A stretch of DNA of 64,000 bases from Dryococelus australis (Eukaryota > Arthropoda > Insecta > Phasmatodea > Phasmatidae), in contig CM057005.1 in NCBI GenBank assembly GCA_029891345.1, forward strand, positions 67,403,760 through 67,467,759, in the 5' to 3' direction. Under the pieces are notes generated by a model. That model was not told where the DNA came from, ran no database searches, and saw nothing but the letters and a program-made list of their open reading frames with translations. A program made the translations under genes and the position numbers. Below are positions 3,591 to 64,000 of this stretch, piece after piece (the first letter of the stretch is position 1; each line of letters opens with the position of its first letter).

Positions 3591-4629
3591 TGTTACGTGT
3601 CAACTGACGCACGAGGTGTGGGTACTATGATGCGTGGACTCTGCTCTGTGAAAAAAAGGGGAGGGGAGGGGCACCAACCTGGATCCTCCTCACCCAGGCA
3701 GACCTACTCGCAGTCCCGTCGCCGGGCGGCCGGGAATGATTGACAGCTGACCTGGCTGGCAACATGGCCCCTCCCCTCCTTATAGGCTGTTCACGGTAAA
3801 GTGAGCACTTTTGATGCCCTAGTTTTTTTTCCTTTCAGCCATTTTGTATCCTTTAATCATCATTTTAAAATAAATATTGCCATGTAAGTAATAAACACAG
3901 CTAATATAAAATTATTTATTGACTATTAATGCAAATGAGAGGGCTTTCAAAAGTGCTCACTTTACCGTGAACAGCGTATACTGGAGAAACCGACATCTTT
4001 AAAGGATTCGCACAAATATTCTGGGAACTAGGACCCTCGGCGCAACGCGGCATTTGGAGACATTTCTGGGCGATGTTGCTGAGTGCGGTAACCGGGCAAA
4101 TCGAGTGCGGCGAGGGATATCGGTGGAGAGGACGGACGACGACGGGAGATTGCGAGACGACGGCGGACGAGGTGTTTGTGGTGCGAACGGACGAGAGGGC
4201 GTGAAAGCCGACGAGTGAAGGCTACTGTGGACGAGGGCGCTCGGGGAATTATTGAACATTATGTACTTGTGGAATCTGGACTAAATTGATGTGGGACTGT
4301 ATGCACATGTGCTACGGACTTTATTGTAAATATTGGAACTGTCAAGTATGGGCATATAATTTATAAAGTAAGTTTTGATATACTGTTTATTGGGAATTAT
4401 TTTAGTTAATCAACTACATTAATTTCTTTGAGGTAATTATAAATTGTACTTATTGAATTTATTAATTGCAAATAGCCAGAGATATCAATTTATTTGAAGT
4501 TATTGAGGCGAGAGTATTTTCTTTGTAATTATTGTAAATTAATTAGGAAATTGTAATTAATTCTTGATTAATTAAGACCTCCATCCCTTAACGAAACCGA
4601 TTTCGCCCACTGGCTGAGAGATTGTAACA
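3591..4629 (+). mobile_element. LTR-like block 1 (solo LTR candidate), interrupted by MITE A
   Basis: It begins TGTTACGTGTCAAC and ends TTGTAACA, the TG...CA inverted termini expected of an LTR. Its last 600 bp are homologous to the blocks ending at 5641 and 28125. The reverse complement of its 3' signature TTAAGACCTCCATCCC is also seen at 24600, 50608 and 59359. A MITE A copy (3783-3978) is inserted inside. No gag-pol frame is attached, so a solo LTR is the best reading. A 4-5-bp target duplication is not visible. Confidence 0.55.
3783..3978. mobile_element. MITE A copy 1 (short form, 196 bp)
   Basis: The termini are near-perfect inverted repeats: TAGGCTGTTCACGGTAAAGT at the left, and the complement of that sequence at the right. 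It is flanked by TA on both sides (3781-3782 and 3979-3980). The interior is AT-rich and non-coding. It lies inside LTR-like block 1. TA duplication is the signature of Tc1/mariner-type insertion, but no transposase is present to confirm the superfamily. Confidence 0.85.
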
Positions 4630-11380: not shown

Positions 11381-11904
11381 TATCAGCGATTCAATAAAAT
11401 CTAGGGAAAACAACACGACGTGTTTGCTCCTACTGATTTTATGCATCCTTCACGAGCAATAAATGCACGAATAAAGCAGATTCATCTATTCTAGCAACTA
11501 ACACTATGCCTTAGTTAATACACTGCAATATAATTAAAACACTGAAGAAGTAGAAGATGCTTTTATTTTTCTGTCAAATCATCGTCGTTAGGAGGTGTCA
11601 ATGTAATGCGGAATTTAGCACCAATCAGCTACTACCCGGGTGGGTTTCGCTCTTACTATATATAATTACTCCTTGGTTCGCGTTTGGGTCATTAGTTTTA
11701 ATGGATGGATCGATGAACACTGGCATGTGCCAATACATCTGCAAAAGCAAGCTGCTTGCACTGTGTAATGTGGAGTAGGACCTTTCCTGCATCAGCAAAA
11801 TAATAATTCTGTTCACGACGCACGGTCAAATGCATCATGGTTTGTATACGAATCAGCGGGACTGCCCAACTGTTCCTCTCGAATTCTCACTTAAATCCAA
11901 TATA
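11381..11904. other. No supported feature
   Basis: Unannotated sequence. Two overlapping frames of 63-73 codons on opposite strands have no recognisable content. Confidence 0.5.
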
Positions 11905-12329
11905 TAGGCTGTTCGCGGTGAAATGAGCACTTTTGATTGCCCTGCTTAGGATATACTTGTATGCACGTTGTGTCTTCTTCCGCCTTATGTAAAATTAATA
12001 TTGCCACGGGCCTCAGCACTTTAATCATGCATTGGTCAAATGGAACTATAATATTATTAGGAAAGTAAATATTTTAAAAATCTCCTCATGTTTACAATTC
12101 TATACATTAAAAAAAAAAACAGAAATGGAAAGATGTCATTTAACTTATCACAAATGGTTACCTGACACTTTTTATTCGGTGTCAATATATGGAACTACTT
12201 TTCACCCTACGTTACCAACTTTACTGGTTACATGTCACTCTGTGCGCCCGTTAAACTATATGCAGGCAGGGGCAGTGACATTTTTCTAAGGTTGATTTCA
12301 AAAGTGCTCACATTATCGTGAACAGCCTT
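11905..12329. mobile_element. MITE A copy 3 (425 bp)
   Basis: It starts TAGGCTGTTCGCGGTGAAAT after TA (11903-11904) and ends ATTATCGTGAACAGCCTT followed by GA. It holds the full interior found in other long copies, including CACTTTTTATTCGGTGTC and ATATGCAGGCAGGGGCAGTG. Confidence 0.9.
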
Positions 12330-12636
12330 GAAAATTAAGAACTTGCAGGCTAACAATTTTCTTCCCTCCCTAAAATGTTAACGTAACAAATTAATCATCA
12401 AAAAACTATCCCAAAAAATTTACAATAGTGACCCGTGTGGCCTCTACGTCGTTCTCTGCACTCTTACCAGTGTTGCCAACCCTACCACTTGTAAATGCAC
12501 GAGATTGGACAAATTAAACACAGTAGATAGCAGTATATTTAAATTGCAAATCTTAATTATCCAGTTAATATAAAATATATATAATTGGTTATTTATAAAC
12601 ACTTGTTCATTCAAGCTCGTTAAGTAGAAAAATTCG

Positions 12637-14600: not shown

Positions 14601-15260
14601 TTTTCCCGGTGTACCAGGGTACCGCCGGGAATCTGTACCCATGCTGAGAATTTTTCCCTTTCTCGCTGCCTCTGGGGGTTTGGGGGATAAAGTTAAATTC
14701 CGAGGAATTTAAAAAATCTTACGAATTTTAAAAATTTTAGGACTTTTAGTTTCTGTCGCGAGTACCAGGCAGCGGGCTTGCGACAGTTGATTCATTTAGA
14801 AAAGTGGAAGTTAATGCCAAAGGTGATTTTAATTTAATTAGATTTTAAAATGTCATACTCATACCTTGCTTCCCGAACCAATCGAGTCATATTAGTATTG
14901 AGAATAAGTTATTAGATAAGTGTTAGTGTAGTATTTGAATTGTGTGTATTATGCAATATAACATTGGAGATTAAGTTTGAATACGTATACTGAACTAATT
15001 GGTATTCTTATTGTTAGTATTAATGCAATTAATACACGGGCTTGAGAGTCAATAACAAAAGTTATTTGTAAGAAGTGTGTGCGTGTATTTCGTGTGAGTG
15101 TCTGAGGGAGACTGACATTAAATTTAACTCTGAGCTGTTTAAAAGTAATATTTACAACAGGAAACTTGCAAAATTCAACCGAAAATGGTTTAATAAGAAT
15201 TAAGTAAGCGGGTATGATACTCCGAGTGAGGTTTCGGAGCTACAGAAGACATTTGAATTA
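14600..15260. other. No supported feature
   Basis: AT-rich sequence after a short GC patch. No repeat or gene was recognised. Confidence 0.5.
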
Positions 15261-15686
15261 AAGGCTGTTCACGATGAAGTGAGCACTTTTGAACTCAACC
15301 TTATAAAAAAGTCACTGCCTCTACCTGCACATATTTTAACTGGTGCACTGAGTGACAAATGCACCCAGTAAATTTGGTAACGACGGGAAGAAAAGTAGTT
15401 CCCTATCTTAACGTCGAATAAAAAGTGTTGGGTAACCATTTAGGCTACAATAACTTAAATGATTCCTTCGTCTTCTGTTCTTATGCATCGAAGTGTTAAA
15501 AAAGACCAGATTTGAAACGTATTTAATTTTGTAATAATTTCACAGTTTCACCTGACAGACGCATGCATAAAGTGATGAGGCCGATGGCAATGTTAATTTT
15601 ACGTAAGGCGGAAGAATATACAAAGTGCATACAAGTAGATCTTAAGCAGGGCTTTCAAAAATGCTCATTTTGCCGTGAACGGCCTA
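15261..15686. mobile_element. MITE A copy 4 (426 bp)
   Basis: TA (15259-15260), then AAGGCTGTTCACGATGAAGT; the right end is TTTTGCCGTGAACGGCCTA, then TA (15687-15688). This is a full-length form with a perfect TA duplication. Confidence 0.9.
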
Positions 15687-15893
15687 TAGTAATTTACGAG
15701 GTGCGCAAGGCGGCGGCAGAGAGGGACCATTGCACCCGGGCGGAGTGGCGCCAACTCGGCGGCGCAGTTAACAGAATAACTGACCGCCCCGAACGTTGTT
15801 TACGCGCCGGCTGCCAGCCGGCCGCCCCACTGGTTATTACGGTCCCGAACTCCGCCTGACCCCAGCCCGCACGCTACGCCAACAACCACACAC
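15687..15893. other. GC-rich spacer between two MITE A copies
   Basis: A CpG-rich sequence of about 200 bp. A 98-codon frame (15563-15859) begins inside the MITE and is not considered a gene. Confidence 0.45.
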
Positions 15894-15895
15894 TA

Positions 15896-16296
15896 TAGGC
15901 TATTCACGGTGAAATGAGCACTTTTGAAAGCCCTGCTTAAGATCTACTTGCATGCACATTGTGTATTCTTCCGCCTTACGTAATATTAACATTGTCATGA
16001 GTATCGTCACTTTATTCATGCGTCGGTCCAGTGAAACATGAAATTATTAGAAAAGTAAATATTTAACAAATCTTCTAGTTTTTACACTTCGGTGAATTAA
16101 AAAAAAAACAGCAAGCGAAAGAAATAATTTAATTTATCACTAATGGTTACCTAGCACTTTTTATTCGACATTAAGATATGGAGCTACTTTCCGTCCATCG
16201 CTACCAACATTACTGGCCTATTAAAATATATGCAGGTAGGGGCAGTGACGTTTTTCTACGTTGATTTCAAGAGTGGTTAATTTATCGTGAACGATT
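15896..16296. mobile_element. MITE A copy 5
   Basis: It starts TAGGCTATTCACGGTGAAAT after TA (15894-15895). The right end is diverged (TTTATCGTGAACGATT). The interior has the same word order as copies 3, 9 and 14. Confidence 0.85.
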
Positions 16297-16537
16297 TGGG
16301 TAAATTAAATTATTTATTTCGATTTTTTTTAATACATCGAAGTGAGAAAATGAGTAGTAAGTATTATAAGAAATTTACTTTTTAACAATTTCACATTTTC
16401 ACTTTACTGGCGTATGAATAAAGTGATACGGCCCATGGCAATGTTAATGTCACATAAGGTGGAGGAATACACGCCGTGCATACAAGTAGATCTTTAGCAG
16501 GGCTTTCAAAAGTGCTCATTTTACCGTTAACAGCATA
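16297..16537. mobile_element. MITE A copy 6, left-truncated and abutting copy 5
   Basis: The order is ATACATCGAAGTGAGAAAAT, GCGTATGAATAAAGTGATAC, TACAAGTAGATCTTTAGC, and a right end TTTTACCGTTAACAGCATA, then TA. Its left half is missing. It joins copy 5 directly in the opposite orientation, so one copy inserted into, or recombined with, the other. Confidence 0.8.
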
Positions 16538-16642
16538 TACAGAGGTGGAACTGTAGAGTGAATACGGGGCACAGCAATCTCGCTAGCTGTGCAGCACCAG
16601 TCTACGTGTACTAACATTGAACTGCTCTTCTGCACATAAGAG

Positions 16643-16830
16643 GCCCGGGTAGTGAAGTGGTTAGACTACTCGCCTCCCACCTAGGCGAACCGGGCTCGAT
16701 CCCCGGCCGGGTCACCGGGTTTTCTCATGTGGGAATCGTGCCGAACGATGCCGCTCAAATATCTTCACTCTTCACCCTTTGCCGCTAATGCTAGCGTCAG
16801 TAGTCATTAAAAACAAATTGGGTTAGATTT
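16643..16830 (+). repeat. tRNA-derived SINE S1
   Basis: The head is GGTAGTGAAGTGGTTAGACT, then CTCGCCTCCCACCTAGGCGA, then a B box-like GGGCTCGATCCCC, body GGGAATCGTGCCGAACGATG, and a CTTCACTCTTCACCC tail. The head is well preserved. Confidence 0.85.
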
Positions 16831-24010: not shown

Positions 24011-24141
24011 CATCGGGTGTTAGGAGCATTGGTGTCGGTGGGAGCCTAAGGACGATGTTCCATGTGCTGTATGCAGACACTCACCTATATCGATGCGATG
24101 TGATTTAATACATTATAAATTGCTGTGGAGATAAGGACCGG

Positions 24142-24205
24142 CGAACTGCCGAACCTTGGATTGGAAGACAGATGCCCTAGTCGACTGAGCCATCAGGACA
24201 TCGGT
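24142..24205 (-). repeat. tRNA-like sequence
   Basis: The minus strand reads ATGGCTCAGTCGACTAGGGC (A box), then TCTTCCAATCCAAGGTTCGG (B box region). The spacing is tRNA-like but the stems are poor. It is probably a SINE head. Its A box is close to the unit of the array at 62.2-64.0 kb. Confidence 0.55.
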
Positions 24206-24556
24206 GTCAGTACAGGTCGAAATGATGTGGCACATGTGTGTTTCTGTGTGTTTATATACATAAATATTAAGAAGAATTTCTCCAAAACATTATAGGAATG
24301 AGAATATATTCGAGAGGAACATGTCAGATATGGTCGTTGTGTTAACTTGTGCAGCAGCCATGTTAGCAAGATACTGAAAATAACTTTTCATTGCTTTTTT
24401 TATCACTAAAAGCAGTACTCTGATTTTTTTTATTACTAACATAACACACAGTTCCTGGTGATACACACATCTCATCGACTATCTTTCTTTACCCGCCCCC
24501 TTATCCCTTTCTGTTACTAGACAATGAAATACCATAAAAGTATTACTTATAAATAT

Positions 24557-59850: not shown

Positions 59851-60560
59851 AAAAAACGTAAAGTTTCAAGAGCGAGAATATTAACACGATCGTTCCGGGC
59901 ATAGAAGTTTTTCTCGTTTCACACACTAGGTAACATAACAACATACATGCTAGTCACGAACCTTTTTGACAGTATACATAGTACCGCCGACGATGTTCCT
60001 CTTGCATGTACAACAGCGACACACGTGTGTCACCATGCTCGGCCGCACACTGGCTCTCGACTCTTTTTTCCTGCTACCGCGCCAAGCACCACTCGTACCC
60101 CGGCCTATAATTACGTCATGGCCACGCAGGTGGCGAGCTCCGGCGGCGACACTTTACACTAATATATCACTACACTACGTAAAAACACAAAAACGTACAT
60201 GTCACTACTAATTGCAATTATATATATAAGTAAATCCATAACTATACATATCAGATAATAGTAGGCCGGCCTATATAATATAAATTGATAAAATACTTCA
60301 CACTAAACCGCAGTAACTTTCTAAGATATTGCCAACAGTACCGAAAAACAACCAGAGGCATCAAATTACCATGTGACGAACCACTTCATCACAATTTCTT
60401 CATTTAAAATATCCCGTTCCATTCGTGCTCATTTAGCTTGCGAATATTTCTCCTTTACAGCAGATATACCAGTATGTAACGCTGATTTAGCAAAGTTGGG
60501 GTATTATTCTATACTCACCCTTTATTATAGCATAATTAAAATATATATAAAAGTTAATTT
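59851..60560. other. No supported feature
   Basis: A mixture of AT-rich sequence and a GC patch at 59985-60150. Short frames only. Confidence 0.4.
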
Positions 60561-60569
60561 TAATTAAAA

Positions 60570-60709
60570 ATGAGGTACTTTTACATTAACAGAAATATAA
60601 AACACTTTATACATAGCATATGTAGGAAATAACCAAACATGTAATACATGGGGTCATTTTTCAAAGGTTTGATCCATAAAACGTGAAGAAACCGCGAATC
60701 GAGTATAAC
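60570..60709. mobile_element. MITE B copy 7, partial
   Basis: CATGTAATACATGGGGTCAT, TTTTTCAAAGGTTTGATCCA and GAAGAAACCGCGAATCGAGT match the end of MITE B copy 1 (11300-11380). The other half is not clearly present. Confidence 0.65.
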
Positions 60710-61285
60710 CAACAACATTATAAATTGGTAAGCGTCCAGGAGACACCCTCTGCACAGTTGAAAGCCAGGAGCCTCATCCAGCTCCTTGCTTTCAGTCCTG
60801 AAGGTGACTACTGCAAGGTACGGCGAAATGTCGGTTTGAGAAACCAAGATGCGGCCCGGAAGCCAAGACAACTACTCTAACAACGGCCGCCAAAGTATGC
60901 AATCTCCTACTAGCTTTGTGTTGCTCAAATGACGAACGAATCATATACGGAGACATTATGCCTACCTCCCTTGCCTTATGGCTTTGAAGAGTACGATTGT
61001 TCATGAAGCAAATATGGAGCTCCAAACAGGATACCTATTTATAAGGCTGTTATAGGCAGCAGTAGCATATTCCTCTTTAGGAGTTAGATATAGTCATCGA
61101 TCTGGAAGTGCTTACTCGCCTTGCACTGAAGATTATTCAAGCAGACGAAATCCTACGACTGACTGTGATGAAAATAGAGTTTATGTCTTCGAGTACAACG
61201 TAGCTACATGAGAAGAGTGAATGTTTGAAGAACCCAACTCGTGTGATTTTTAGCTGCGCTAATTCTCCTGGGCAGTTCGCTTTAA
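60710..61285. other. No supported feature
   Basis: Unannotated sequence before the coding remnant. The frames are short and incoherent. Confidence 0.4.
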
Positions 61286-61878
61286 GTGACAATTTCAATA
61301 GAAGCATTAAGGTCAGCATGTATAGTTTACCTTCTACCGAGAAACAGCACATATTTACGTCGCTATCTCCTTCTGTTAAACTGCAGTATACCATGTTCAC
61401 TGAAGACGAGTAGACTACAGACAAGCGACGATCAGCATGCTGTACAGCTGGTTCATGCGAGATGTGCACTTGCTAAAGTGCCATGTGAACGGGGCGAATT
61501 TCAGAAGAATAACATAGCACCATTAGCTATAAAGATACGTTGTAACTAGACACCTTTTACAAAGCAAAGTATTCCTGTTGATGTCTATGATGACGAAGAA
61601 GCAGGTAATGTCTGTGCTGAAAAAGAGAAGGGCGATGAAAACGATAATGAAGACAGAGTTGGCAACGAAGACAATGGCAATTTTCTTGATGCCCTTACGC
61701 ATCTCCCCACCAGCTTTTCTGGGAAAAGTGGCATGAAGAAGATAGAAGACTGCAAGAATACCGTCTACATACTTCCTGAGGACCCTAATGAGCTTGACAA
61801 CAGACTCAGACATTTGATCACTTCATAACATGGTGGAGATTTCTCGCACATTAAGGAAATATCTTCAATTATCAGTTA
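61286..61878 (+). pseudogene. Decayed coding remnant with acidic stretch and NDPNEL-like motif
   Basis: One frame stays open from 61286 to 61828, broken only by TAG at 61547-61549. The 61550-61828 part looks truly coding. It has an acidic segment (YDDEEAGNVCAEKEKGDEND), a hydrophobic-basic linker, and VYILPEDPNELDNRLRHLIT before TAA at 61826. Translation past that stop continues sensibly (HGGDFSHIKEISSIIS), then another stop at 61876. That argues for a mutated longer gene. The DPNEL-x-RLR-L-S motif recalls short uncharacterised proteins abundant in some invertebrate genomes that behave like repeat-encoded genes. I cannot name the family. The 61286-61546 part is less convincing. Confidence 0.5.
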
Positions 61879-61879
61879 A

Positions 61880-62205
61880 CTGAAGAATAGGGGTTATAAC
61901 TTATGAGACCAATGCGTCTTATCCATTATCAGGAAACATATAAGAAATGTAATGATAAAAATGTTTGAAATAAATAGAACAAATTTATATACATTTAAAA
62001 ACATGCATTTATTTACTTGTAAAATACCTATTGATTTTCTAAAAACAAACTTATTAATTCGATTGTCTATACAATCATTTGCTTGCTGGTTGGTTTTGTT
62101 GGTCTGGGCAGTTGGTGTAGGTGATCGGTCTGGTCGGTTGGTATGAATAGTGTGGTCATTGATATTAACTTTTGGTATGGTTGGTATTGTTGATTCTAGC
62201 CACTA
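61880..62205. other. AT-rich to GT-rich transition, no feature
   Basis: A TTGGT-rich patch at 62080-62190 leads into the tandem array. No gene is seen. Confidence 0.4.
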
Positions 62206-64000
62206 TATCACTGCGGCCCCATTTGGGAGTACTCTAGCTACTAGGTCACAGAGATTGCGAGTGTTCCAGCAACTAAATCATTGTGGCCCCAGTTGAAAAT
62301 GTTCTAGCCACTATATCACAGCGACCCCAGTTAGGAATGTCCACTGTAACACCACTTATAGAGCGCTCTAACCACTAAGACTCTGGGGCCCCGCTTGAGG
62401 GAACTAGCCACTGAGCCACTGTGGCCCAACTTGGAGGGGGGTTGCTCTAGCCACTGAGCCATTGTGGCCCAACTTGGAGGGGGGTTGCTCTAGCCACTGA
62501 GCCACTGTGGCCCAACTTGGAGGGGGGTTGCTCTAGCCACTGAGCCACTCTGGCCCCACTATTTTGGGCTATTGCCACTGAGCCACTGCGGCCACACTAC
62601 AGAGTGCTTTAGCCTTTGTGATGCCACAGTGGTTCAGTGGCTTGAGCTCCTCCTCGTGAGGCCACAGTGGATCAGTGGCAAGAGCACAATAGAATGGGGC
62701 CACAGTAGTTAAGTGGGTAGAGCATCCACAATGGGGGGCCAAAGTGTCTCAGTGACTAGAGCACCCCCACAAGTGGATGCGGCCCCAATGGTAGGTGCTG
62801 TATCCCCTGAGCGATCATGGCACACTATTATGGGATTTAGTTCCTGAGCAGCTGCGGCCCCACGTTGGATGCGCTAGCAACTGGGCAACTGTGGCTCCAC
62901 TGTTGGGTGCTCTAGCCACTGGGAAATTGCGGCCCCACTATTGAGTGCTCTAGCTCCTGTGCAACTGCAGCCCCAATGATGGATGGGTGCTCTAGTCACT
63001 GAGTTACAATGCCTCCGCTATTGGATGTTCTAGCCCTTAAGCTTCTGCGACTCCACTTTTGGATGATCTAGCCACTGAGCAACTACGGCCCCACAAATGG
63101 AAGCTCTAGCCACTGAGCTACTGGAGCCCCACTATTGGGTGCTCTAACCCCCGAGAAGTTGCTGCGCCACATTTGGGTGATCTAGCCACTGAGCAATTGC
63201 GGCCCAAGTATTAGGTGCTCTAGCCACTAAGCCACTGTGGCTCCTATGATATGTGCTCTAGTAACTGAGCAACTGTGACCCCACAAATGGAAGCTCTAAC
63301 CACTGAGCAACAGTGGCCCTAATGTAAAAAATATTCGTTTTGGCCACTGTGCCTCCATGGCCCCAATGAAAAAAATCGCTCTAGCCACAGACCCTCTACA
63401 GCCACACTGAAAAAAAAATGGTTTTAGCCACTGAGCCTCCGCGGCCGCACTGGAGAAAACATCACTCTAACCCCTGCACCTCCTGGCCCCACTGAAAAAA
63501 AAAATTTGTTCTATCCCCTGCACCTTCATGGCCCCACTGAAAATAAATTTGCCCTAGCCACTGCGCCTATGCGGCCCCACTGAACAAGAATCGCTCTAGA
63601 CACAGCCCCTCTGCGGACTCACTGAAAAAAAAAAGTCGTTCTAGACACTGCGCCTCTGCGCCCCACTAAAAATAAAGTATATCTAGCCATTGAGTCTACG
63701 TGGCTCCACCTAAATAAATATCGCTTTAATTCCTGAGCCTCCGCGGCTCACTGAAAAAATATCCCTATAGCCACTTACCCTCCGCGAACCTATTAAAAAT
63801 TGTCTCTAGACACTGAGACTCCGCGACCCCACAGAAAAAAATTGCTCTAGCCACTAAGCCTCTGCGGCCCCACACTGCCCTTCCGCGGTCCAAATGAAAA
63901 AAAAATTGCTCTGGCCCCTGCCCCTCTGCGGCCCCATTGAAAAAAATTTGCTCTAGCCCTTGCACCTCCACGGCCCTACTGAAAAAATTAACTTGCTCTA
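62206..64000 (-). repeat. Tandem array of tRNA A-box-like units (runs off the window)
   Basis: Units of about 40-60 bp repeat to the window end. Read on the minus strand, most carry a variant of CAGTGGCTCAGTGGCTAGAG preceded by GGGGCCGC. TGGCTCAGTGG fits the Pol III A-box consensus (TRGYnnAnnnG). No B box is present. Three adjacent 43-bp units (62404-62446, 62447-62489, 62490-62532) are almost identical. Others diverge and gain A-rich spacers (CCCCACTGAAAAAAA) toward the end. At about 62620-62780 several units are in the opposite orientation. The unit resembles the head of the tRNA-SINEs in this window, so it is probably a satellite derived from a SINE or tRNA head. Confidence 0.8.

Follow-up and report, generated by a model that had tools for sequence, protein, structure and literature searches.

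A tandem array of SINE-head-like units inside Helitrons and a second dispersed element of Dryococelus australis

One end of a 64,000-nucleotide stretch of the Dryococelus australis genome (the window; G000:C13:67403760-67467759, C13 being contig CM057005.1) is filled by a row of short units that resemble the A box of tRNA genes, part of which points the other way. The locus therefore raises the question of how part of a tRNA-like promoter came to be repeated in tandem, and whether the resulting row has any function. The array is probably a SINE-head minisatellite, in which each unit consists of the 5' ~29 nt of a SINE, its A-box end, together with a linker, and which has spread as a passenger. 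The evidence for each part of this answer was sought in the window and in the 3.415-Gb assembly of 646 contigs.

Structure of the array and its inverted block

The preliminary description had reported tandem repeats running to the window edge, and had proposed that a tandem repeat finder be applied. TRF found periods of 38 and 41-43 within 62262-64000, and the tandem structure is real. An iterated profile gave 48 matches, from which 5 weak plus-strand matches outside 62600-62790 were excluded, leaving 43 candidate units with model starts at 62218-63975, 39 on the minus strand and 4 on the plus strand, and with 3 of the 43 scoring below 5 bits. Each unit comprises a core near GGGGCCGCnGnnGCTCAGTGGCTAGAGC and a short linker, with a length of 38 or 41-45 bp, which is also the spacing of most units, rather than the 40-60 bp originally given. 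The core is common to all blocks, and the linker differs from block to block (Table 1). The array extends 979 bp beyond the window edge, where a second plus-strand block terminates it. In total it contains 57 units of at least 8 bits (locus L009), exceeding the cut-off of at least four tandem units applied to SINE-derived satellites in PMC10702118.

The A-box string is far more frequent in the window than expected by chance. With at most one mismatch, TGGCTCAGTGG occurs 15 times, 13 of them at 62408-63438, against an expectation of 0.48, and 0 of 100 shuffles contained 15 or more. This is in agreement with the A-box fit first noted on the minus strand, although that fit does not hold for every unit type: the 38-mer and the first 43-mer pass the tested A-box patterns, whereas the consensus of the T-rich block misses them, because A, not T, precedes GGCTCAGTGG.

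The sub-block at 62.62-62.78 kb that had been described as oppositely oriented was recovered as four plus-strand units at 62622-62762. This inverted block and both of its junctions align across three copies on two contigs (L009, L010 and L011) at 82.8-85.0%. As the junctions are common to all three, the inversion was copied, not created at the window locus, and must be older than their dispersal. Other orientation switches are present in L030/L045 and L032.

Table 1. Features of the window relevant to the array (window coordinates)
Feature	Position	Strand	Basis
SINE copy of the family that the units resemble	16640..16758 (approximate limits)	+	alignments
Non-tandem part of the dispersed element carrying the array	60491..62205	+	homology in L030, L032
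92-codon open frame within the carrier element; related frames in other copies mostly broken	61550..61828	+	
GGTTGGT-rich segment abutting the array	62083..62205	+	92-93% identical in L030, L032, L033
Tandem array of SINE-head-like units	62195..64000	-	TRF and profile; continues to C13:67468738
Diverged leading units, spacing 32-64	62195..62400	-	profile
43-bp block of almost identical copies (96% matches by TRF); linker close to AACCCCCCTCCAAGTT	62404..62595	-	
Inverted four-unit block; two further copies in the genome align across each junction at 83-85% identity	62612..62785	+	
38-bp block; unit type also present in Helitrons	62800..63320	-	TRF and profile
41-45-bp block, T-rich linker on the A-box strand; best SINE-head fit	63326..64000	-	

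Relationship of the unit to SINE heads

The same genome harbours a dispersed tRNA-derived SINE of ~245 bp (40 copies scored of 4604 candidates), which begins near GGGGCCGCGGTGGC; four copies encountered by chance in other loci start with GGGGCCGCGGTGG or close variants. The array units align in register with its 5' end, from SINE nucleotide 1. A head consensus was built from nine places in 312,780 bases, chosen by the SINE body rather than the head, and including one place (window 32415) that is unlike the SINE head. Against this consensus, the T-rich 43-mer is identical in 21 of 25 columns, and was matched by 0 of 5000 shuffles, these preserving base content only, as in all the SINE-head tests. 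The 38-mer was equalled by 6, and the other 43-mer by 30, of 5000. The homology was weaker against the L044-like subfamily, represented by ten heads drawn from the 40 places that best match the L044 copy, in which the D-arm differs (GCCGAGCGGTTAGCTC): as many as 107 and 434 of 5000 shuffles did as well as the 38-mer and first 43-mer respectively, with only 4 doing as well as the T-rich 43-mer. The fit of the units to single SINE copies ranged from poor to good, the 38-mer being equalled by 63 of 300 shuffles against L041, 76 and 22 against L042, and 87 against the window copy. Five places in the genome match the array D-arm combined with a B-box pattern, compared with none for a reversed control, and all five resemble the SINE downstream; their D-arm identity is by construction, as they were found by searching for that D-arm.

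The SINE-head origin proposed in the preliminary description, which had suggested comparing the unit consensus with SINE heads, is therefore supported. The register from nucleotide 1 and the T-rich 43-mer, clearly above shuffles, support it, but do not prove it, because the other two unit types fit only weakly to the sampled subfamily. These comparisons favour a related SINE subfamily as the putative parent. The T-rich unit, which has the best SINE fit, is without the first T of the A box.

Two other accounts of the likeness have to be weighed. Firstly, a duplicated 8-mer in the core (CAGTGGCT) might mimic an A box by chance, as a loose A-box pattern is found in 360 of 20,000 shuffled 38-mers, and is failed by the T-rich unit. 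This is very unlikely, given that a pattern joining A box and D-stem (written after the unit was seen) occurs in 0 of 20,000 shuffles, and that no shuffle equalled the T-rich 43-mer against the nine-place consensus. Secondly, the parent of the unit might be a tRNA gene or a different SINE family with a tRNA head, the GGGGCC start then reflecting shared head ancestry. The array D-arm GCTCAGTGGCTAGAGC can pair as in a tRNA (GCTC/GAGC), unlike that of the sampled SINE subfamily, and a tRNA-like repeat at window 24120-24250 also matches the units over 18-20 columns, with 1, 19 and 20 of 500 shuffles as good for the first 43-mer, 38-mer and T-rich unit respectively. However, that repeat does not have the GGGGCCGCGG start, and it is the ~245-bp SINE that is fitted by a 5' GGGGCCGCGG in register from nucleotide 1, making such a parent rather unlikely.

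The sequence at 24120-24250 (minus strand) represents a second dispersed tRNA-like repeat, containing GATGGCTCAGTCGACTAGGGC, with at least 41 matches (40 scored of 187 candidates). As candidate parents, the tRNA-like repeats around 812 and 20469 were rejected, with 357 to 499 of 500 shuffles as good.

Mobile elements carrying the array

The genome search with the array that had been suggested gave at least 393 matches in 40 scored of 4677 candidate places, and 20 of the 40 loci (L009-L028) were examined. The flanks of 14 matched Helitrons by BLAST, L016 over 55 bp only, and L024 is a fifteenth Helitron locus by virtue of its ends. The 38-bp unit thus lies inside short Helitrons, 15 of the 20 examined loci having Helitron flanks or ends. 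The remainder are three loci of the window type (L009, which is the window itself, L010 and L011), plus L014 and L020, which were left unassigned.

Canonical Helitrons are described in PMC4067079 as having a 5' TC, a 3' CTRR and insertion between A and T, and the array loci elsewhere in the genome have these features. Two end sets were distinguished (TCTATACTACTAAATAAAATAG... and TCCTTACTACTATATAAATG...), with the 3' ends reading CTAG before T. At the array elements, 8 of 11 5' ends have TC preceded by A (exceptions L025, L026 and L027), and 9 of 10 3' ends have CTAG followed by T (exception L015), for motifs written from these same loci, and leaving out a weak L020 3' match and a separate L026 element. 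Both ends are present in eight loci, 1.0-3.7 kb apart and of two sequence types, and in L018 the 3' end is 2.4 kb past the array. Canonical Helitrons also have a palindrome of 16-20 nt close to the 3' end; when folded as RNA, two of the 3' ends gave -6.5 and -0.8 kcal/mol. Judging from their size, these Helitrons would be non-autonomous. Within them, L021, L022 and L023, which have the second end set, match 131-247 bp of the leader that adjoins the array in the first set (L012-L019), suggesting that internal modules may have been exchanged between Helitrons.

The window locus has no such termini or flanks. The Helitron end motifs are absent from the window and from L009-L011, neither end type is present in L009-L011, L030 or L032, and BLAST found no Helitron flank match in L009-L011. 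When window-type and Helitron loci were compared, their immediate array flanks did not match, and the matches farther out are other dispersed repeats. Hence the unit occurs both inside Helitrons and in a second dispersed element, homology to which begins at window position 60532 in L030 (88.7%) and 60491 in L032 (83.0%). Using window 61145-62150 as the query gave at least 54 matches (40 scored of 1651 candidates). The array is present in all five close copies (82-100%), and seven distant copies (69-72%) contain no unit of at least 8 bits within 1.5 kb. Nor was the array recovered farther downstream in four of these distant copies, in which a further 6.5-6.9 kb contained a single 7-bit match.

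Other short tandem repeats were instead found by TRF at the array position in five of the seven distant copies (L034, L035, L036, L038 and L040), and those of L034 are followed by a piece resembling window 62127-62183. The repeats of these array-free relatives, the sequence of which was inspected in three, include GAGGAATATTTTTGAGGAATG and GAGGATTGGTGAG types. The 92-codon frame of the window copy matched no Pfam family, and had no homologue in a protein search. Among the distant copies, L036, L037 and L034 have frames with C2H2-like finger motifs, and that of L036 has a C-terminal DPNELVDRLR motif; proteins of this sort occur in virus-like Maverick/Polinton elements.

Tests of three window-type copies revealed no target-site duplication, the longest shared words being 5-6 nt, and the carrier is therefore called simply a dispersed repeat. 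The same result would be expected if the five window-type copies were segmental duplications instead of copies of a mobile element, as would their varying left breakpoints (61145 in L031/L011, 61692 in L033/L010). Yet the 40 scored relatives (of 1651 candidates) are distributed over many contigs, in the manner of an old interspersed family, and duplication of this kind is somewhat unlikely.

Function of the array and comparison with known systems

Searching the whole window for GGTTCGAATCC with at most one mismatch gave only the sites at 812 and 20469, and a B box of this form is therefore absent from the array, as had been noted at the outset. A search of the array with tRNA and other RNA models found no fit, all listed matches being below gathering scores, which rules it out as a tRNA gene or known RNA; the combination of A box, B box and tRNA fold that would mark a tRNA gene or Pol III transcription unit is not found. 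A special unit hairpin was also rejected (folding z = -0.26, -0.31 and 0.59). Mismatch rates were 8.5% in the core and 8.3% in the linker for 194 units from six Helitron loci, and 14.7% and 17.8% respectively for 112 other units, the 16 units of L016 being left out of both groups. Core conservation is thus not above linker conservation in the Helitron units, and strong constraint on the core specifically is rejected.

As the core is no better conserved than the linker in the Helitron units, and neither a B box of the form searched nor a matching RNA model was found, a Pol III or TFIIIC function is without support, and the residual TFIIIC or nucleosome-phasing effects suggested in the preliminary description are not borne out. 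It is improbable in the extreme that selection maintains the array as a row of working A boxes, whether for TFIIIC, Pol III or nucleosome phasing. The core is retained while linkers vary between blocks, a T run follows it on the A-box strand in the T-rich block units, and the units outside the six Helitron loci have fewer mismatches in the core than in the linker; against this stand the near-identical rates in the Helitron units, the absent B box and the ordinary folding. It is likewise highly improbable that a row of SINE A boxes was adopted by at least three types of mobile element, the two Helitron end kinds and the window type, because it is beneficial. Were this the case, the benefit might be the recruitment of TFIIIC and the maintenance of inserted DNA in an accessible state, and a fragment of a retroposon promoter would now serve several DNA elements as a common cis-module.

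The array is most simply read as a passenger. The process may have started when a short segment spanning the 5' junction of a single SINE insertion was duplicated in tandem, such that the initial unit would have joined SINE nucleotides 1-29 to a linker made of flanking bases. Slippage or unequal exchange could then have enlarged the array, which would have spread partly through rolling-circle transposition of short Helitrons, and partly with the window-type dispersed element. No promoter function is necessary at any step of this passenger scenario.

Both halves of this history have parallels. PMC10702118 describes squamate SINE-derived satellites (sSat), which, like the array, are tandem units built from part of a tRNA-headed SINE, and sometimes include added bases of unknown origin. 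However, the snake sSat has a 67-nt unit that takes in the 3' portion of the head, with its box B, and some of the body, whereas the unit here is 38-45 bp, is limited to the 5' head end that bears box A, and is found in Helitrons, a word absent from the main text of that paper. The same source cites the newt PolIII/TAN repeat, which similarly has tRNA-related sequence in tandem, but with a unit of ~360 nt that is transcribed in vitro, rather than the A-box part alone in a 38-45-bp unit; Xenopus OAX and satellite are named by title in its references. Helitron-type elements with tandem arrays include the Helitron/Helentron-type Cg_HINE of oyster (PMC7492417), DINE-1 of Drosophila (PMC4067079) and insect Hel-2 (PMC4344730). 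The array elements share with these their conserved rolling-circle ends and internal tandem array, and differ in having a unit that resembles a SINE head. The ends of the array elements follow the canonical Helitron pattern (TC, CTAG, A/T site), which Hel-2 also has and the HINEs lack. A review (PMC12628747) mentions that one and the same array can be present in different elements, and that arrays can run in different directions.

Among the titles and selected passages covered by a literature search, there was no A-box-only SINE satellite in Helitrons, and no end motifs were found in PMC4038834. The present repeat would be an unusual combination of a SINE-derived satellite with a Helitron-carried tandem array, using a unit from the A-box end. 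A single repeat would thereby unite two known satellite routes, the conversion of SINE fragments into tandem repeats and the carriage of tandem repeats by Helitrons. The order of these steps is testable within one genome, which has relatives both with and without the array, three types of unit and an inherited inversion.

The window also contains an abundant MITE-like family with inverted ends (TATAGGCTGTTCACGGTAAAGTGAGCACTTTT), at 3781-3980, 11903-12347, 15255-16540 and further positions, for which 17 and 16 copies of the ends were listed.
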